Origin: Candidatus Rifleibacteriota bacterium
GTDB taxonomy: Bacteria; Muiribacteriota; Ozemobacteria; Ozemobacterales; Ozemobacteraceae
Direction of reading: 5' to 3'
NCBI GenBank assembly: GCA_015233155.1
Contig: JADFYG010000031.1
Span: 1-64,000, forward strand
Length of the DNA: 64,000 nucleotides
The notes under the pieces: model-generated
The model's database searches: none
What the model was told of the DNA's origin: nothing
What the model saw: only the letters and a program-made list of their open reading frames with translations
In this document: positions 8,155 through 37,269 of the stretch, piece by piece
Numbering within the stretch: the stretch's first letter is position 1
Layout: each line of letters begins with the position of its first letter
Program-made: the position numbers and the translations under genes

Positions 8155-8308
8155 CAGGGCATTTAATTCTCGACCGGTAGGGCAGCGACCGCCGGGCGCG
8201 CCGCGTCTTTTGCCACGAGCTTTCTCGGCTGGCCCGGCGGTCCAGCCCTACCATTCGTTGAAATCATGCAATGCAAGCCATTCGCGGGCGGAGAATTAAA
8301 TGACCCTG
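8155..8308. mobile_element. Palindromic mobile repeat, family 2 (reference copy)
   Basis: The ends are inverted repeats: CAGGGCATTTAATTCTC at the left, and at the right the complement of CAGGGTCATTTAATTCTC. Flanking direct repeats GCGGATTAC (8146-8154 and 8309-8317) indicate a 9- or 10-base target duplication. The interior (8176-8252) is a long imperfect hairpin beginning GGTAGGGC and ending GCCCTACC, shared with family 1. Directly after the right-hand duplication a further terminal sequence (CAGAGTCATTTAAT, from 8319) begins, so the element sits at the edge of another copy. No open reading frame inside. With the flanking remnants it fills the 490-base gap between the neighbouring genes. Confidence 0.7.
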
Positions 8309-28279: not shown

Positions 28280-28308
28280 TTGAATGACGCCGGAGGGTGT
28301 GATATACT
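28280..28308 (+). promoter_or_regulatory. Sigma70-type promoter for the FHA-ParA/kinase/phosphatase operon
   Basis: TTGAAT (28280-28285) and TATACT (28303-28308) are 17 bases apart. Transcription would start near 28315, 26 bases before the ATG at 28341, leaving room for the GGGGGTG ribosome-binding site at 28326. Confidence 0.6.
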
Positions 28309-28340
28309 CCGATCACTCTTGTGTATGGGGGTGCCTTTCC

Positions 28341-29540
28341 ATGGCTGATGAATCCAAGAAAACGATCTTCCGGAAAGCCGTTGTACAAGCGGTGGAGGAA
28401 GAAAAAAAGAAGTATCTGGTCGGCAATACGCCTCCATATCTGGGTAAGCCTTTCGAACTTGCGAAAGCGTCTTACAGTATCGGCCGTGAAGAAGGCCGTG
28501 AGCTTGTACTGGCCAGTGACATGATTTCACGTCTGCACGCGACCATTACGCGTGAGGGCGATGTTTTTTTCATTGAGGACAACAGCAGTTCCAACGGAAC
28601 CTTTCTGAATAATGCGCAGATTGAGTCAGCAAAGAAGATAAAACTTAACCATAAGGATATCCTGAAATTCGATACTTTCGAATTCATATTCGTCGATTCC
28701 GCGCGCAGCGATCTGTGGGAGACGTTAAAACCACTGTCACGCACGGGAGCGCAAATAATCGGTCTTTACAGTCCCAAAGGCGGTACAGGTCTTACAAGCA
28801 CAGCGGTGAATCTGGCTCATGCTCTCTCTACGGCGGGAAAAAAGGTGGTCATCGCCGATTTCAATTTCGCTTTCGGGGATGTTCTGACGTATTCGAACGG
28901 GAAGGTCGGCCTATCGTCGTGTGAATTGATGCGCGAACCTGAAATTACGGGCGATATGATCGACAAGTTTCTTCGTCCGGGGCAGGGTTATAGCTATATC
29001 GCGGCTCCGTCAAAAACGGAGGAAGCTGAGCTTGTGAATGACTGGGCCATGAAGAAGCCCGAACTTGTTCAGAAATTATTGTGGAGCTTGGAGTCGAAGC
29101 ATGACTTCGTGATCGTGGATCTCAAGAATCAGATCGATGATGTTGTACTGACTGTCTGGGAAGCTTCGAACCTCATCCTTTTGTTCGGCAAACCGGAGAT
29201 CGGACACATGCTTGCCCTCAAGAAAATTCTTGCGATCATGGACAAGCTCAAATATCCCGAATCGAAGGTGAAATTACTCATCTCACGGCTGGAACGTGAA
29301 GGCGGGTTGACCGGAGATGAGATCAAGGGCTTCCTTAAGCGTGATTTTTTATCGCTTCCCGATGCGCCGAAAGAAGCGATCATGACTACCCAGGGTGGGA
29401 AACTCTACGTGATGGAAAACCCGGGTTCGCCGCTGTCGAATGGCATTTCAAATCTGGCACGCAACATCCGAGGCGAGGAAATAGTCGCAGCGGTCGAAGG
29501 TGGAATTTTCGGCAAATTGCGTTCCATGTTGGGATTTTAG
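28341..29540 (+). CDS. FHA-domain protein fused to a ParA/MinD-type (CpaE/TadZ-like) ATPase
   Basis: A 399-residue protein. Residues ~40-115 form a forkhead-associated domain: YSIGREEGREL, then SRLHATI and NSSSNGTFLN, with all phosphothreonine-contacting residues. Residues ~140-390 form a SIMIBI ATPase of the ParA/MinD group: SPKGGTGLTST replaces the usual KGGxGKT loop, so the signature lysine is kept but the second, P-loop lysine is leucine, as in CpaE/TadZ pilus-localisation proteins. VVIADFNFAFGD and FVIVDLKNQIDDVVL give the switch regions. First gene of an operon with a Ser/Thr kinase and a PP2C phosphatase, so the FHA domain probably reads the state set by them. The frame extends upstream to 28284 but the promoter spans that region. 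Confidence 0.85.
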   Translation: MADESKKTIFRKAVVQAVEEEKKKYLVGNTPPYLGKPFELAKASYSIGREEGRELVLASDMISRLHATITREGDVFFIEDNSSSNGTFLNNAQIESAKKIKLNHKDILKFDTFEFIFVDSARSDLWETLKPLSRTGAQIIGLYSPKGGTGLTSTAVNLAHALSTAGKKVVIADFNFAFGDVLTYSNGKVGLSSCELMREPEITGDMIDKFLRPGQGYSYIAAPSKTEEAELVNDWAMKKPELVQKLLWSLESKHDFVIVDLKNQIDDVVLTVWEASNLILLFGKPEIGHMLALKKILAIMDKLKYPESKVKLLISRLEREGGLTGDEIKGFLKRDFLSLPDAPKEAIMTTQGGKLYVMENPGSPLSNGISNLARNIRGEEIVAAVEGGIFGKLRSMLGF

Positions 29541-29546
29541 AGAAAC

Positions 29547-31319
29547 GTGGCTGAATACACCGGAAAGCGGGCTGGAAATTTCACCATCCTCAATAAACTT
29601 GGGGATGGTGGGTTTGCAACTGTTTACCTTGCTCAACATACCGTTCTTGAAAAAAAAGCGGCTGTAAAATTCCTTTTGGAAGAGTGGATCAACGAACCTG
29701 ACGTCGTTTCGCGATTTTTTGACGAGGCGCGAACCATGGAACGGCTCAAAGATCATCCGAACATCGTAGGAATTCTCGACATTGCATCGAAGGAAATTTG
29801 CGACAAAGAGGGGCTTCCGCCGTATTTCATAATGCAGTACGTGAATGGCGTTTCTCTTGAAAGCAAAATTCATGGCGAGGAGGGGTTCACTCTCGATTTC
29901 ATTTATGATGTCGCCAAGGCAGCTTTATCCGCTCTCGCTCATTGTCACAAAATGGGCGTCATACACCGGGATATAAAACCTTCGAACATTCTCATTGACG
30001 TTGACGGGCGGGTGCTGCTGACCGACTTTGGAATTGCGAAGGCGAAGATAAATACGAGTAAAACCGGGGATGGCTTGACGCTTGGTTCCACCGATTACAT
30101 GTCACCGGAGCAAGCCCTTGGAAAACGTGACCTGGACCACCGAAGCGATATATATTCTTTCGGAGTGACCATGTATGAACTGGTCGTCGGGAAGCTTCCA
30201 TTCATTGGCGACAATCCGAATTCGGTTGCGTTGATGCACATTCAGGAGCCGGCCAGACCTCCGATTGAAATAAATGATGCTGTTCCGCCGAGGCTGAACG
30301 ACATCATAATGAAAGCCATGGAAAAGAGGCGTGAAGACCGCTACCAGACACCTGAAGATATGCTGGAAGCCTTTCAGCATGTGAATGATCCGGAGCCTTC
30401 TCTTGATGCCGATGTGAAGTCCGTCGATCTTACGAAGGCAACCGGGCAGACGCAGGAGTTACCGGAAGACAGTCTGAAAAATACTGAGGGGCGGAGGAAA
30501 AACGCAGATCCGCATGTTTCCAGATTTCAGGCGAGCTTTCAAAGCGAGGCGTTTCGCGGAGTTTTGAAGGCGTTTGCTTTGGTCATCGGATTTACGCTGA
30601 CGTTTCTGGGCGGATTCAAAGGCTATCAGGTATACACCCAGGCCGGGATAGACATTTCTTCTTTCCCGCCGGGTGCACAAGTTGATGTAAATGGTCAGAA
30701 GGTCGGGACATGTCCAATAGCATTGCCACTTACGCCTGGGATTTACAAGATCAAGTTGTCGATGCCCGATTACATCGATCAGGTAATCAAAATCAATCTT
30801 CAGCAGAAACAGAAGGTTGTTTTAAACAGGTCGCTCAAGAAGCCTGATCCTGAGATGGAGTCGCGACTGGATAAGGTTTTCGAGGGGATTGCCGCAATAG
30901 GTAGTGGAAAAAAGAAGGGATCGGCTGCACAGGAAGCGTGGCGTAAAGTCGAAGCGACCATCGACGAGGTGATTCAGAATGAAGATGCACACCTTGACTT
31001 TCTGAAGCTTTGTGAACGAAATGGCTGCCTTGCTTCAGCTGCCATGTTTTATAAGTCTCGTGTGGAAAGAGAGCCGAAAAATGCATTACTGATGACGATG
31101 TGGGGCAAGGTTCAGATCGCGAAAAATGATCTTAAAGCCGCGCTCGACACTCTCACCAAGGCCTGGGAACTGGACACCAATAGCCCGTTGTTGCTTAACG
31201 CATTGGGTGATTATTTTCTGAAAGAGGGAAACAAGCAGAAGGCTAAGCAGTATTATGAGATCTCTCTTGATCTGAACCAGAACCAACCGGATATCACGAG
31301 TAAAATGAAGGGTTTGTAG
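29547..31319 (+). CDS. Ser/Thr protein kinase with PEGA domain and TPR-like tail
   Basis: A 590-residue bitopic protein starting at GTG. Kinase domain 12-280: GDGGFATVYLA, catalytic lysine AAVKF (about 41), HRDIKPSN (about 139), DFGIA (about 159), SPEQALG. A linker is followed by one membrane helix (about 339-361), then a PEGA domain (SSFPPGAQVDVNGQKVG, about 365-432), whose family sits outside the membrane, and TPR-like helices at about 480-590. This Hanks-type topology places sensing outside and phosphorylation inside. The start is six bases after the FHA-ParA stop; only a weak AGAGAA precedes it. With the following phosphatase it makes a reversible phosphorylation pair. Confidence 0.92.
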   Translation: MAEYTGKRAGNFTILNKLGDGGFATVYLAQHTVLEKKAAVKFLLEEWINEPDVVSRFFDEARTMERLKDHPNIVGILDIASKEICDKEGLPPYFIMQYVNGVSLESKIHGEEGFTLDFIYDVAKAALSALAHCHKMGVIHRDIKPSNILIDVDGRVLLTDFGIAKAKINTSKTGDGLTLGSTDYMSPEQALGKRDLDHRSDIYSFGVTMYELVVGKLPFIGDNPNSVALMHIQEPARPPIEINDAVPPRLNDIIMKAMEKRREDRYQTPEDMLEAFQHVNDPEPSLDADVKSVDLTKATGQTQELPEDSLKNTEGRRKNADPHVSRFQASFQSEAFRGVLKAFALVIGFTLTFLGGFKGYQVYTQAGIDISSFPPGAQVDVNGQKVGTCPIALPLTPGIYKIKLSMPDYIDQVIKINLQQKQKVVLNRSLKKPDPEMESRLDKVFEGIAAIGSGKKKGSAAQEAWRKVEATIDEVIQNEDAHLDFLKLCERNGCLASAAMFYKSRVEREPKNALLMTMWGKVQIAKNDLKAALDTLTKAWELDTNSPLLLNALGDYFLKEGNKQKAKQYYEISLDLNQNQPDITSKMKGL

Positions 31320-31334
31320 GCGGAGGAAGAAAGC

Positions 31335-32093
31335 GTGGAATACAAGGCTTTCGGGAAAACGGACATGGGCAAAGTCCGAAGCAACAATGAAGATGCCATT
31401 TTTTCGACCGACCGCGATGGTGTTTTTCTAGTCGCTGACGGAATGGGCGGACACAAAGCCGGCGAAGTCGCTTCGGCGATGGCTCGGGATATTCTATCTG
31501 CGCGGCTTGTCCAGCAGAAATCTGCTGATAACCTGGAGCCGGCGATTCGCGAGGCTTTTCTCGACGCCAACGAGCAAATCCGCTTGAAATCAACCGAGAA
31601 TGCTGAACAACAAGGTATGGGTTGTACTTGTGTTTTATTGATGCTGCGTGAGCAAACTTTTTTCCTGGCTCATGTGGGCGATTCACGGATATATTTGTTT
31701 CGCAAGGGCGATTTCAAGCAGATGACTCGCGACCATTCTTATGTCGAAGAGTTGTTCATAAGAGGGTTGATTACCGAGGATGAAAAGATTGATCATCCAT
31801 ACAAAAATCAGATCACGCGTTACATAGGTTGTAATCAGAAGCTCGAAGTTGACATTACTTCCGGTCCCGTCTGGAACGGCGATATGTTTTTGCTTTGCAG
31901 CGACGGATTAACCGATATGGTGCCACTGCCGCGACTCAAAGAGCTCTTCGTGAAACACGAAGAACCTCAACCTCTTGTCGAAACGCTTATTGCGGAAGCT
32001 CTTGAAGCCGGCGGTCGCGATAACGTTTCCGCAATCGTTGCGAAGATCACTTCAAAGAAGACCAGCTTCTTTAAAAAAATTCTTGGTTGGTAG
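31335..32093 (+). CDS. PP2C-family protein phosphatase
   Basis: A 252-residue soluble phosphatase of the bacterial Stp type. The metal-binding motifs are all present: KVRSNNEDAI, VADGMGGHKAGEV, HVGDSRIYLFR, TRDHSYV, SDGLTDMV and GGRDNVSAIV. It should remove phosphates placed by the adjacent kinase. The GTG start is 16 bases downstream of the kinase gene and has GGAGGA seven bases upstream. It is the last gene of the operon; the 316 bases after it contain only palindromic repeats. Confidence 0.95.
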   Translation: MEYKAFGKTDMGKVRSNNEDAIFSTDRDGVFLVADGMGGHKAGEVASAMARDILSARLVQQKSADNLEPAIREAFLDANEQIRLKSTENAEQQGMGCTCVLLMLREQTFFLAHVGDSRIYLFRKGDFKQMTRDHSYVEELFIRGLITEDEKIDHPYKNQITRYIGCNQKLEVDITSGPVWNGDMFLLCSDGLTDMVPLPRLKELFVKHEEPQPLVETLIAEALEAGGRDNVSAIVAKITSKKTSFFKKILGW

Positions 32094-32226
32094 TTGAGGT
32101 CTGATTTATTCCAGGCCCGGAAGAAACCCCTGCGGATATAGGACTCGGCGTGCCCGGCGGTCACGCCCTACCCACGCCCTGCCGTTTGTCCGGCTTAACT
32201 AGGAATTAAATGATCCTGTGGGAATG

Positions 32227-32391
32227 CAGAGTCATTTAATTCTTGATCGGTTAATGGCTAGAACTGCCTTATTTCAGTGAAGGGTAGGGCTGGACCGCCG
32301 GGCCAGCCGAGAAACCCTGCGGATATAGTTACGCCCTACCACATGACTTTTATTCGTTTGCCCTGCTTATATCGAGAATCAAATGATCCTG
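32227..32391. repeat. Palindromic repeat family 2, second copy (165 bp)
   Basis: The left end CAGAGTCATTTAATTCTTG and the right end, complement of CAGGATCATTTGATTCTC, form a mismatched inverted pair. The interior has the core arm GGTAGGGCTGGACCGCCGGG (about 32283) and, near 32330, ACGCCCTACC. Flanks TGGGAATG (32219-32226) and TGGAATTG (32392-32399) agree at six of eight positions. Just upstream (32148-32218) lies another partial copy ending GGAATTAAATGATCCTG, so two ends face each other eight bases apart. These fill the gap between the convergent signalling genes. Confidence 0.55.
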
Positions 32392-32409: not shown

Positions 32410-33624
32410 TTACATGCCGAATACTTCTTTTACCATGGAGAACATATTCCAGGTGCCCTTATCCGGATCTTCACCTACCAGACGACGACATAGTCTTTCC
32501 ATGGAGAGCATGAGAGGTGTGCCGGCGAGAACTGGTTGCAGAACGAATGGGTCGCCTGTGTTGACCGAGGGAATTACGATGTCGCCTTCACTTGGAATGA
32601 AATGACTGATGGCATAGCGCAGGGAGGTTTCGACGCGCGACGGCTCGAGACCGAGTGCTTTGAAAGCGCGGTTAAGCACGACTTTGATCTTGTCCCGCGG
32701 AATCTTCAGACGGCCGAAAAGATCTATCAGGAGCTTGGTGTTTTTGATAAATGTCAATTCCATGGTCATCATGACAAGTACAAGATCGCTCATGTCTATG
32801 ATTTTCAGTTCGAGCTCAGTCAGATGGTTTTGGGTGTCCACGATTACGAAGTCGTAGTTTGCGCGGAGTATATCCAGGGTTTGCTCAACGAGTTCGATCT
32901 TGATTTTTTCGGCTGTTTCCGGTAGGGGTGGCGACAGCAATACTTTAAGTCCGGATTTGTGCGTGGTCAGCTGCGTTTCGATCTTCTCAATTTTGAGCGG
33001 CTGGCGGATTTTAGATAGTTCATACATATTTTTCTCTGTCGGGAGGTTCAGAATAATACTCTGATCGCCAAACGCGAGATTCAGATCGACGAGTACCACC
33101 TTTTTTTTCCAGAAATACTTCAACATGATGGCTGCGTTTGCCGACATCACTGATTTTCCGGCTCCGCCCTTAACGTTGAAGAATGTAATGATCTGACCGA
33201 ACGGAGTTTTTGAAAGCCCCTGTTCAAGTAGAATCCCGGCACGATGAGAATACGTCTCCCGCAGTTCTCGGGCGAATCCGGGGTAGAGCCCTACCAGGCG
33301 CAAAACGGATTCTTTGGGAATGAACATGATCTGGAATTCCATGTATCCGATCAGTGCAGCCAGTGCGCCTGTGCCGTTGAGCATCTCGACTTCGCCATAT
33401 GTATCGCCAGGATCGAGAGTAAAAAGCGTCTTTTTCTTTCCCTGATGGGTTTTTATAACACTGACCTGACCTTCGACGAGCAGGATGAACTCCTTGACTT
33501 CTTCGCTTTCATTCAGGATGCGCGTGCCGGAAGTATACTGTTTAAATCGGCACTCCTTCTTGAGTTTTTCAACTTCCCTGGAAGGAAGGGTGCTGAAGAA
33601 AGTAAAAGTTTTCAGATCTATCAT
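32410..33624 (-). CDS. Cyclic-nucleotide-type domain fused to a ParA/MinD-type ATPase
   Basis: A 404-residue protein. Residues 1-125 are a CRP/cNMP-binding-type beta barrel (FILLVEGQVSVIK, then LDPGDTYGEVEMLNGTG). The phosphate-binding cassette lacks the arginine expected after the GE motif (GALAALI where PRxA is normal), so classical cAMP binding is doubtful. Residues 143-400 are a ParA/MinD ATPase with an intact loop FNVKGGAGKSVMSANA, switch VVLVDLNLAFGD and FVIVDTQNHLTEL. It faces the FHA-ParA operon, whose ATPase has similar downstream motifs, so the two are probably functional relatives. In CpaE/TadZ proteins the N-terminal domain is a receiver-like domain; here it is replaced. Confidence 0.85.
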   Translation of the reverse strand: MIDLKTFTFFSTLPSREVEKLKKECRFKQYTSGTRILNESEEVKEFILLVEGQVSVIKTHQGKKKTLFTLDPGDTYGEVEMLNGTGALAALIGYMEFQIMFIPKESVLRLVGLYPGFARELRETYSHRAGILLEQGLSKTPFGQIITFFNVKGGAGKSVMSANAAIMLKYFWKKKVVLVDLNLAFGDQSIILNLPTEKNMYELSKIRQPLKIEKIETQLTTHKSGLKVLLSPPLPETAEKIKIELVEQTLDILRANYDFVIVDTQNHLTELELKIIDMSDLVLVMMTMELTFIKNTKLLIDLFGRLKIPRDKIKVVLNRAFKALGLEPSRVETSLRYAISHFIPSEGDIVIPSVNTGDPFVLQPVLAGTPLMLSMERLCRRLVGEDPDKGTWNMFSMVKEVFGM

Positions 33625-33986: not shown

Positions 33987-34793
33987 TCATGGTTTTTTGA
34001 TGAGGGTCTGCCAATTGGGAATGAAGGTGGATCTTTTGAAAATGGAATAATATTCTGAAGCCACGACATCATAAAAATCGGCAATCTGGACAACCTGAGT
34101 TCTTTCCAATAATCGACGTTCGATAGCCTTCACTGAATTATCTTTTGTTTCTTCAATCTTCCTGACGTTTATATCTGATTCGATCCGCTTAACAGCTTCG
34201 GCAATCTGCAAGGTAACGAGCCATGTGGTTTTTGCCGGCGACAGGGGGTTTTCACGAATCTCAAAAAAATTCACACGATTACTCAATACTGTCTTCCCTA
34301 ACGCTCCCTCTTTTCGAGAAAGGGTATAAAACGGAGAATCCGTTCCGGATTTACTCAGTTCATAAGTCACAGTGACTACTTTGCGATAGGCTGTACCAGG
34401 AGTGTTTTCTATGATCTCATTCATATTGCCGTGTAAGGGGAACCGTAAAATTGAGTAACTCGATTCAAAATTTCCAAAAATAATTTTCGAAAAATAGGCG
34501 ACTGTTTTGTCAATTTGAAGGGGCTTGGCATTATAGTCGATAAAAAAAACGGAATACTTCAGATCATCGTGGATTTGCCTGATGATTCTCATGGCTTCCA
34601 GCGTGATTTCACCCTTTACAAGTCCTTCCAGAGAAGTTTTGGAGCCGGAACGATAGACCATGAAAATAGGTCCCATAAGCAGGGATATGAGAGTGACCGC
34701 TATCATTACCTCGACTAATGTATATGCTTTCCGCAACTTCGCTCGGCGTATGTCACCAGAAGTGGAAAATGAGATGCCTGTGTTATTGAACAT
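33987..34793 (-). CDS. Minor pseudopilin, PilW/GspJ-like
   Basis: A 268-residue protein. The N-terminal region LRKA then YTLVEVMIAVTLISLLMG is a prepilin signal with Glu at position 5; the residue before the cut is Ala rather than Gly, which prepilin peptidases tolerate less well. The unusually long leader (about 23 residues) fits PilW/GspJ-type minor pilins. The remainder is a beta-rich domain with no recognised motif. Its start overlaps the end of the next pilin gene by 11 bases. Third gene of a set of three that corresponds in size and order to GspK-I-J tip pseudopilins. Confidence 0.78.
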   Translation of the reverse strand: MFNNTGISFSTSGDIRRAKLRKAYTLVEVMIAVTLISLLMGPIFMVYRSGSKTSLEGLVKGEITLEAMRIIRQIHDDLKYSVFFIDYNAKPLQIDKTVAYFSKIIFGNFESSYSILRFPLHGNMNEIIENTPGTAYRKVVTVTYELSKSGTDSPFYTLSRKEGALGKTVLSNRVNFFEIRENPLSPAKTTWLVTLQIAEAVKRIESDINVRKIEETKDNSVKAIERRLLERTQVVQIADFYDVVASEYYSIFKRSTFIPNWQTLIKKP

Positions 34794-35208
34794 ATGGTAT
34801 TACGGCTTTCATTGAAAAATTCACCTTGCCGCGTCTCAGCCAGGCCTGAGCTCTGGAGTTTGACCGGGGGGTTACCGTAACTGTAACAAGGCACAGTGGA
34901 AGCTTGCTGATATCAACAGAAATAGTTCGCTCAAACATTGATGATTCAACGGGATATAACCCCAGCTGATTGAGTATCGGTTCCGTAACTGCAACAGGGT
35001 ATTTGGGTATACTCATGCACTCCGGATATCCCACGGCACGAAATACTTCAATGGGTTCCTGGGCAATCTGCATGGCTAGGAATTCGAAATAGGAGTCCAT
35101 TGTCATTCTATTGGAGGAGCTGTTTACTGTGAGAAGTGCCAACAGAGCTCCGGCAAGGATAAACGAAGCTATGAGAATTTCAACGAGAGTTACGGCGCGT
35201 CGCTTCAC
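34783..35208 (-). CDS. Minor pseudopilin, PilV/GspI-like
   Basis: A 141-residue protein beginning MKRRA then VTLVEILIASFILAGALLAL, a short class III signal with Glu at position 5 and again Ala before the cleavage site. The size and the following helix (SSNRMTMDSYFEFLAMQIAQ) fit GspI/PilV. The ATG overlaps the upstream stop (ATGA) and its own stop overlaps the following PilW-like gene, so the three genes are translationally coupled. Confidence 0.8.
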   Translation of the reverse strand: MKRRAVTLVEILIASFILAGALLALLTVNSSSNRMTMDSYFEFLAMQIAQEPIEVFRAVGYPECMSIPKYPVAVTEPILNQLGLYPVESSMFERTISVDISKLPLCLVTVTVTPRSNSRAQAWLRRGKVNFSMKAVIPYVQ

Positions 35209-37181
35209 TGTTCCGGACTCATCATTCGTATAAAAGATATTTTAGGCGAAATACTTACTGAATATACATCGGAATCAATTTTATAGAATCTTTTTGCATC
35301 ATATTCAATTATGTGAGGGCCTATGGGCCATTTAGCCGACCCAAGTCTATTTACAAAAAGCGCACCTTTGAGATTCAAGGCTTTTCCTGTATTGACCACA
35401 ACTTCATTGGCAATAATGCCTGCTTCTATTTTCTCAGTGGTATCTATGACGATATTTCCTTTTGTCCATAAAACGCACATGGAATCCGGCTTACAGGTAA
35501 TTCCGTTCTTGATGATGATGTCCTGGTTTGTGGAAAGAAGCCCCTCTCCGGTAACAGTTACCATGCCTTGCCCACCGATTACAATTGGTGAGCGAACATG
35601 CGTTGCCCCACGCAGGTTCAGCCCGCCGGGGGTTAATATCCCGAGGCTGGTAAGTTCGGCGTTATCTGCTGCTGCATATGAGCGAAGGTTGAAATACGAA
35701 AATGGCGTATAGTCAGTCTTGATACTTCCCGGGGAATAAGCCTTGTTTCTTTCACTGTCAAGACTGGAACCAAATGGCAACTCCTCATCGACAGAAGTCA
35801 CGGCCTTTCTCAATGGTGCAGGAGTGAGATTTTCCAGGCATTTGAAAATTGTCTTTATGAACACAACCAGGTTTTGCCCCTGTTTTTGACACATCTGAAC
35901 ATACGCATTTGAAGGTACCACCAGAAGCTTATTCGTCCCTTGTATCTGGGCAAGCTTTTGGTTGTTGATCTCGACAAGGTAAATGAATCGCTGTCGAAGA
36001 TGGCCTTCAATCACCTGATGTGGAAGATCATTGGTATCTAAAAGTTTTATGCCGGGTTCCGTATTGTCTTTGGGATTGCCCGTCTGTCCCGGATCACCGA
36101 AAAGGGCATCACGTGCGTCTTTTTCAAGACCCTGGGGATTTGGTGAAAAAGGAACTGCACCGCTTTTCAGCGAACTTTTGCCCAGTTCATCAGTTATGGC
36201 GCTCAAAGGAGTCGTTCCAGCGGGCCAATTTCCCTGTTTGATTTCAGCATCGATCTTGTTTTTTGCGTCCGGGTCATTAGTCAATGCGTCGTTACCCATT
36301 TGCGCCGCTTCGGCCAGGTTGATCAGCCTGATGGCATTTTCCTGGGGTATGTATGAAGACTGGCCTGGGCCGAGGTTGATAAATACATAGTTGTCTTTAT
36401 CGTCGGTGCCACCAATGTAAATTTTTCCCTGACCCATAGGCTTAATCTCGAAACTGAGATTTGAATTATTAAGCATTCGGCCCGCCGTGTCCCTGAACTC
36501 CTTGAGACCTTCACGAACGAAGAGGGCATAATCCAGGCAGCGATTACGAGCTTTCGTTCTATCCGAATTTTTCTGGTCACTGACAAGGCAGATGACCTTG
36601 AAATCATGATGACGCTCAAGCGTTAAAGCGGTCACACTTCTACCGGCTTTGGCAATAACGATGGTTCCACGCAACACCAGGGTTCCATGGCCTTCCCCGC
36701 GATAGTATGGAGTTGAGACGCCGTTCTCCAACCGCATATTTCGGAAATCCTCTTTGCGTTTGGAAACAATGACGGCCAAAGAGGCTATTTTCAATCCGCC
36801 GCTTTGCTCAAATTCGGCGGCAATAGATTTTGTTTGCGGCAACTTGTTCAGGTTCCATTCCTGGGTCGTGGTGTCGGAATCATTAGCCAGCCATTTAGAT
36901 GTAACGTTCTGTGAAGAGCCCGTTTCCTGGTTGAATAGAAAGAAGGTCTCATCTATGGCGCTTCCCAGAAGACACTTGGCGGCTTCATCCTGCTCCGATC
37001 GAAAAGCCATACGCTGGGAATGAGAAGCCAGATTGCTGAATCCGAAAACCAGAATACCCAGAACGCACAAAACGATAAGCACCAGAGGAAGAATGATACC
37101 TCTAGGCTTGGAATTTCCCGTGAGGAGATTGTGGACATTTTGTGTGTGCATCAATGATTGGTGTTTCCCGGGCGGAAACAT
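35205..37181 (-). CDS. Large PilX/GspK-like minor pseudopilin
   Basis: About 658 residues from ATG 37181, which has AGAGG nine bases upstream; the frame also opens at 37211. A long leader ends SKPRG, followed by IILPLVLIVLCVLGILVFGF. Position 5 is Pro, not Glu, the pattern of GspK/PilX tip components. The leader is followed by the PilX-type helix (EQDEAAKCLLGSAIDETFF). Its C-terminal third (GGLNLRGATHVRSPIVIGG, then IIIKNGITC and AGIIANEVVVNTG) has short hydrophobic strands repeated in the manner of a beta-solenoid (polymer-forming/bactofilin-like). It is more than twice the length of ordinary GspK. First gene of the pseudopilin trio. Confidence 0.7.
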   Translation of the reverse strand: MFPPGKHQSLMHTQNVHNLLTGNSKPRGIILPLVLIVLCVLGILVFGFSNLASHSQRMAFRSEQDEAAKCLLGSAIDETFFLFNQETGSSQNVTSKWLANDSDTTTQEWNLNKLPQTKSIAAEFEQSGGLKIASLAVIVSKRKEDFRNMRLENGVSTPYYRGEGHGTLVLRGTIVIAKAGRSVTALTLERHHDFKVICLVSDQKNSDRTKARNRCLDYALFVREGLKEFRDTAGRMLNNSNLSFEIKPMGQGKIYIGGTDDKDNYVFINLGPGQSSYIPQENAIRLINLAEAAQMGNDALTNDPDAKNKIDAEIKQGNWPAGTTPLSAITDELGKSSLKSGAVPFSPNPQGLEKDARDALFGDPGQTGNPKDNTEPGIKLLDTNDLPHQVIEGHLRQRFIYLVEINNQKLAQIQGTNKLLVVPSNAYVQMCQKQGQNLVVFIKTIFKCLENLTPAPLRKAVTSVDEELPFGSSLDSERNKAYSPGSIKTDYTPFSYFNLRSYAAADNAELTSLGILTPGGLNLRGATHVRSPIVIGGQGMVTVTGEGLLSTNQDIIIKNGITCKPDSMCVLWTKGNIVIDTTEKIEAGIIANEVVVNTGKALNLKGALFVNRLGSAKWPIGPHIIEYDAKRFYKIDSDVYSVSISPKISFIRMMSPEQ

Positions 37182-37269
37182 TTCTGAAAACCTCTTATGC
37201 AAATATACCATGTGGCAATCACTGCGAAAATGTTATAAAAGAGGTTTTTCCAATATACACGATATATCG

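Follow-up and report, generated by a model that had tools for sequence, protein, structure and literature searches.

A candidate phosphothreonine switch joined to a TadZ/CpaE-type protein in Riflebacteria

How bacteria choose the site where a pilus is built is still poorly understood, and a three-gene operon in Candidatus Rifleibacteriota bacterium raises the question of what a reader of phosphorylated threonine does when fused to a positioning protein. The window (the whole 64,000-nucleotide stretch analyzed, positions 1 to 64,000 of contig JADFYG010000031.1, here C110, of the 6.3 Mb assembly GCA_015233155.1) carries the operon on its forward strand. It encodes a protein made of an FHA domain and a CpaE/TadZ-type ParA/MinD domain (FHA-TadZ), a PknB-like membrane Ser/Thr kinase and a PP2C phosphatase (Table 1). 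The first-pass annotation had described genes that read, set and erase phosphothreonine, the reader being fused to a TadZ/CpaE-type protein; this description was borne out, the system being conserved and co-inherited across the whole Riflebacteria family. Our reading, held with a little less than even confidence, is that of a PknB-GarA-like phosphothreonine switch bolted onto a TadZ/CpaE-type positioning protein.

Conservation and domains of the operon

Of the 24 family genomes, 18 from at least nine genera carried FHA-TadZ, at 46-66% identity to the window protein, a conservation which argues that the FHA fusion is not a product of chance. Full-length orthologs occurred in no other family of the 382-genome sample. 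The nearest named relative was the metagenome-assembled genome nDJH14bin3 (66% identity for the FHA protein). An orthologous kinase and then a PP2C gene stood directly behind FHA-TadZ in all loci with sufficient contig and the tail motif (15/15), so that the FHA-ParA fusions which had been proposed as a search target next to kinase and PP2C genes of related genomes were indeed recovered there. Close PP2C orthologs were present in 17 genomes, and a TadZ protein with a cyclic-nucleotide-type domain (cNMP-TadZ) in 15. FHA-TadZ, PP2C and cNMP-TadZ were jointly missing from G003, G004, G008, G012, G019 and G021, several of which are incomplete; co-occurrence of FHA-TadZ with PP2C gave a Fisher p of 5e-5, uncorrected for relatedness. 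In the ATPase tree, FHA-TadZ proteins formed one clade (100/99) among CpaE/TadZ proteins, and the neighboring cNMP-TadZ proteins formed another (100/100).

Intergenic gaps of 6 and 15 bases confirmed the close spacing of the three genes, while the single promoter placed in front of them did not hold: with 7 sites in the region against 9.3 expected in shuffles, the candidate at 28280-28308 was not above chance. FHA-TadZ orthologs begin MSDESKKTVFRK, which points to the ATG at 28341 as the start and rules out a start at 28284.

FHA-TadZ matched the Pfam families FHA (9e-18) and AAA_31 (1e-9). All phosphothreonine-binding residues of the FHA domain were unchanged across orthologs, forming the canonical site of the GarA/OdhI-type switch. 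The structure model (pLDDT 77) matched the ParA-family structure 3ea0 (TMt 0.85), and its FHA part matched GarA chains, 6i2p among them (TMt 0.85-0.94, rmsd 1.0 at best). The ParA/MinD fold with its deviant Walker A motif is that of the CpaE branch, and the FHA domain stands where CpaE/TadZ proteins carry an (atypical) N-terminal receiver domain. The P-loop lysine was replaced by leucine or isoleucine in 18/18 orthologs while the signature lysine was kept; the same loss was seen in several other CpaE-branch proteins. TadZ itself is described as a protein with an atypical Walker A motif that binds ATP but has low activity (PMC6668835). On these two grounds the protein is named TadZ-type and not ATPase; judged from its sequence, ATPase activity is doubtful, and the earlier assignment as an active ATPase was dropped.

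The kinase matched Pkinase (1.5e-47), PEGA (2e-10) and TPR families, with HRD, DFG and SPE motifs complete and invariant across orthologs. In the PDB, its model came closest to PknB of the PknB-GarA complex 6i2p. The kinase scored 304.7 against the 450-bit cut-off of the PASTA-type PknB family, PEGA and TPR replacing PASTA. Mean column identity was 0.36-0.63 for the outside part, among the fastest-changing, against 0.74-0.95 for the kinase domain. Juxtamembrane and outside parts diverged while the activation-loop threonines stayed fixed, as expected of a kinase with constant chemistry that senses differing signals; PEGA as the sensor is plausible. The phosphatase (PP2C, 1.4e-21) scored above the Stp1/IreP NCBIfam cut-off (254.7 against 230 bits), with complete motifs invariant across orthologs. 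The FHA, kinase and PP2C motifs were as intact as first annotated. A threonine in the PP2C tail (KKTSFFKK) was rejected as a second FHA ligand, being lost in about half of the PP2C orthologs.

Table 1. Features of the operon and of the adjacent convergent gene, in window positions.
Feature	Positions	Strand	Basis
FHA domain + CpaE/TadZ-type ParA/MinD fusion (FHA-TadZ), 399 aa	28341..29540	+	Pfam FHA, AAA_31; ortholog-set start; structure model
Tail motif K7-T8-I-F-R-K12, candidate phosphothreonine self-ligand; T8 codon 28362-28364	28359..28376	+	Ortholog alignment, codons, model
FHA domain; G48R49, S63R64xH66, N85G86, N90 invariant	28473..28670	+	Pfam, ortholog alignment
ParA/MinD (AAA_31) domain; deviant P-loop SPKGGTGLTS, signature Lys146 invariant	28752..29252	+	Pfam, ortholog alignment
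C-terminal helix within GGIFGKLRSMLGF, candidate membrane-targeting	29505..29531	+	Predicted helix 389-397, low confidence; motif conserved
PknB-like membrane Hanks-type Ser/Thr kinase, PEGA + TPR outside, 590 aa	29547..31319	+	Pfam, motifs, structure model
Kinase domain; activation-loop T170, T173, T178, T182 invariant in 15 orthologs	29583..30353	+	Pfam, ortholog alignment
The one transmembrane helix of the kinase (model helix 334-364)	30546..30638	+	Model and sequence
Extracytoplasmic PEGA domain, then TPR helices	30648..31313	+	Pfam, model; fast-evolving
Stp1/IreP-type PP2C phosphatase, 252 aa, tail KKTSFFKKILGW	31335..32093	+	Pfam, NCBIfam, ortholog comparison
Cyclic-nucleotide-type domain + TadZ/MinD protein (cNMP-TadZ), intact P-loop KGGAGKS; cassette GEVEMLNGTGALAAL without phosphate-binding Arg	32410..33624	-	Pfam, ortholog alignment

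In about ten genomes (L056:4495-8187 and relatives), one flank of the operon held genes for an HtrA-like protease, an NAD-epimerase and a small lipoprotein-like product, and the other flank genes for SH3 and beta-propeller secreted proteins.

Outside the phylum, a zinc-ribbon triple-FHA TadZ lay directly after PP2C in G613, as well as in G742 (split over contig ends and frames), and a double-FHA TadZ was found in G644; a fusion unique to Riflebacteria was thereby ruled out. These proteins differ from FHA-TadZ of the family by their two or three FHA domains and lack a threonine tail of the Riflebacteria kind. The P-loop lysine was missing in G613 and G644 too, and no kinase like that of the operon was found near the three genes. 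Their ATPase domains formed a separate clade, and a single origin of the fusion was not rejected (p-AU 0.25). In G613 the genes for PP2C, triple-FHA TadZ, ParA and an FtsZ-like protein stand in a row (L130:7301-12598). More such fusions may exist beyond the genomes sampled.

The N-terminal tail, the proposed switch and its rivals

The tail motif [KA]KT[VI][FY]R[KR] was present in 17/18 FHA-TadZ orthologs, the window form fitting KKT[VI]FRK, and K7, T8 and R11 were kept in 17/18 within an otherwise variable tail. Thr8 was encoded by ACG, ACT or ACC, so the constraint acts on the protein. The tail, modeled at very low confidence, is probably disordered. Its sole exception, in G006 (L067), had a different kinase behind FHA-TadZ and no close PP2C ortholog. 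In GarA/OdhI the tail is phosphorylated and the FHA domain is the docking site for the kinase, the substrate peptide containing ETTSVFRADFL (PMC8546545); in DgcB the FHA domain binds its own tail, and this tail-FHA device is fused to an output domain (PMC6733907). The FHA-TadZ tail, with its conserved threonine followed by [VI][FY]R, partly resembles these self-binding phospho-tails but has no ETTS motif as in GarA/OdhI. Thr8 may be the self-ligand of the FHA domain, a candidate role that we put forward tentatively.

A PknB-GarA-like switch is proposed because the FHA and kinase models match PknB-GarA and because GarA/OdhI docking and DgcB offer precedents. An outside signal would reach the PEGA-TPR part and activate the kinase, which would autophosphorylate on its activation loop. 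The FHA domain, which probably reads phosphothreonine written by this kinase, would dock on it as GarA and OdhI do on theirs, and the docked kinase would phosphorylate Thr8. The phospho-tail would then occupy the FHA domain of the same or of a partner molecule, and this occupancy would release FHA-TadZ from the kinase or alter its assembly. Such a change could shift where the TadZ-type protein, itself probably membrane-associated through its C-terminal helix by analogy with CpaE (PMC13170226), gathers and what it recruits, until PP2C resets the switch.

Several observations weigh against this proposal or its extension to pili. The tail flanks (K at -2, R at +3) differ from those of GarA and DgcB (E at -2, hydrophobic at +3), and for this reason binding of the tail by the FHA domain is offered only as a hypothesis. 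The hydrophobic moment of the C-terminal helix was not above that of permutations. The operon lies outside the Tad locus of its genome (L046), which has a TadZ of its own. RcpC, a Tad component weighed below, occurred without the system in three genomes and the system without RcpC in one (these genomes being incomplete), and PilM was present in 24/24 genomes, so that a type IV pilus client cannot be told apart.

The same departure of the tail flanks from the GarA consensus would fit an FHA domain which reads phosphothreonine on a third protein (for example a component of a filament or secretion apparatus) or on nothing but the kinase, the N-terminal motif being an unrelated interaction motif. 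Kinase-phosphatase-FHA precedents exist in type VI secretion, where Fha reads TssL (PMC3953482, PMC12607579), and the FHA domain matched type VI TagH, below cut-off. Yet no machine genes were conserved beside the operon, and Thr8 stands out as conserved in a tail that mostly varies, the one ortholog without it having a different kinase; we consider this explanation rather unlikely. An envelope-stress kinase-phosphatase pair of a generic kind, for which FHA-TadZ is only a scaffold tethering the kinase, would account for the PEGA-TPR part outside and for the protease, SH3 and beta-propeller genes in the wider neighborhood of about ten genomes. Those neighbors were absent from the window and from L052/L053, where the trio stays, and the TadZ part had many invariant columns, as did the FHA part, which makes a mere tether the least probable of the explanations weighed.

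PknB-type kinases often act on division. This role, together with the ParA/MinD fold, a weak match to Ssd (TIGR03815) and the position of FHA-TadZ between PP2C and ParA and FtsZ-like genes in G613, would speak for control of cell division or septum placement, and not of pili, by an Ssd/MinD-like protein under PknB-like control. The G613 gene order keeps a division role open. It is nevertheless improbable for the family: no division genes were found near the operon in the Riflebacteria family, the system was not found in six family members and is thus probably not essential, and the ATPase clade sits among CpaE/TadZ proteins. We retain the PknB-GarA-like switch on a TadZ-type protein as the working interpretation.

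Candidate clients and the neighboring cNMP-TadZ

The client of FHA-TadZ is most likely the Tad machine of the cell or another type IV filament machine, an assignment which is weakly supported; the Tad pilus in particular is a possible client, held with low confidence. The Tad locus of the genome encodes CpaB (above cut-off), a CpaF/TadA-like ATPase (below its cut-off), a secretin and a receiver-TadZ, to which FHA-TadZ gave a profile match over 271 columns at 99.8% probability. Each of the nine genera that carry the system has RcpC, and neither of the two that lack the system does, in a small sample of related genomes and with no correction; a link of the system to Tad pili is no more than suggestive. 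Caulobacter CpaE dimers are arranged around the CpaF motor and probably make contact through their N-terminal receiver domains (PMC13170226). Since the FHA domain occupies the receiver position, a TadZ of the FHA kind could plausibly sit in such a ring. Service to a pilus machine encoded with the operon was not supported: besides the separate Tad locus, no Tad genes stood beside the operon in the neighborhoods examined, and the adjacent prepilin-like genes were not conserved neighbors.

The cNMP-TadZ gene adjoined the operon convergently in 13 of the 15 genomes carrying it, and its product is the likely partner of FHA-TadZ. Despite high conservation of this protein, its cassette lacks the phosphate-binding arginine, which makes cAMP an improbable ligand. 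It is tempting, if unlikely, to see TadZ/CpaE as a plug-in platform, whose N-terminal receiver could give way to an FHA domain or to one of the cyclic-nucleotide type. Several TadZ proteins per cell would then steer one filament machine by simultaneous two-component, threonine-phosphorylation and nucleotide-type inputs, the FHA and cNMP versions acting together in a conserved heteromeric pair.

The same genome encoded more orphan cNMP-domain TadZ/MinD proteins (L045:8843-10036, L044:7834-9063, L048:6249-9140), of which one neighbors an mnmG-like gene, another carries a long TPR tail and two have odd P-loops (KDGVGRTT, RNGCGKT). Prepilin-like genes, one with an N_methyl domain, adjoin cNMP-TadZ at 33987-37211 of the window; as they are not conserved next to the operon in relatives, they were rejected as a part of the system. 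A repeat of about 90 bases lies between PP2C and cNMP-TadZ (32224-32328, also at 8221-8308), with about 40 genome copies at 74-87% identity, and is REP- or MITE-like.

Comparison with known systems

The operon suggests control of a positioning protein through phosphorylation and dephosphorylation. If true, this would be a direct tie between eukaryotic-like threonine phosphorylation and a spatial protein of the MinD/TadZ type; single-residue tests of the tie could target Thr8 and the FHA pocket, and TadZ N-terminal domains would appear as exchangeable signal inputs. No system with this reader-ATPase fusion had been known to the first-pass annotation. A literature search of limited scope agreed, finding no CpaE joined to an FHA domain and only unrelated co-mentions of TadZ and FHA domain, while the presence of FHA-TadZ beside PP2C outside the phylum qualifies how singular the fusion is.

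Like CpaE/TadZ of Tad pili, FHA-TadZ has an N-terminal regulatory domain, a deviant-Walker MinD fold and a short C-terminal helix in the same order; the regulatory domain is a receiver there and a phosphothreonine-binding FHA domain here, encoded with a kinase and a phosphatase outside the Tad locus. With PknB-GarA and PknG-OdhI of Actinobacteria it shares a PknB-like kinase, a GarA-like FHA fold and a conserved threonine close before VFR in a probably disordered N-terminal tail, but the effector is TadZ-type instead of a metabolic inhibitor, the tail flanks differ and self-binding is putative. DgcB of Bdellovibrio (tail-FHA-GGDEF) likewise has a conserved tail threonine and couples tail and FHA domain to an output domain; here the output is ParA/MinD-type and the operon itself supplies a candidate kinase and a PP2C, whereas the kinase of DgcB is not identified. 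In type VI PpkA-PppA-Fha, a membrane kinase, a PP2C and an FHA protein jointly act on machine assembly and position, as proposed here; the FHA domain of the operon is instead fused to TadZ, and no type VI genes were among the conserved neighbors. Steering of a machine by kinase, phosphatase and FHA protein is thus known from type VI secretion, and what is new is its combination with a TadZ-type protein.

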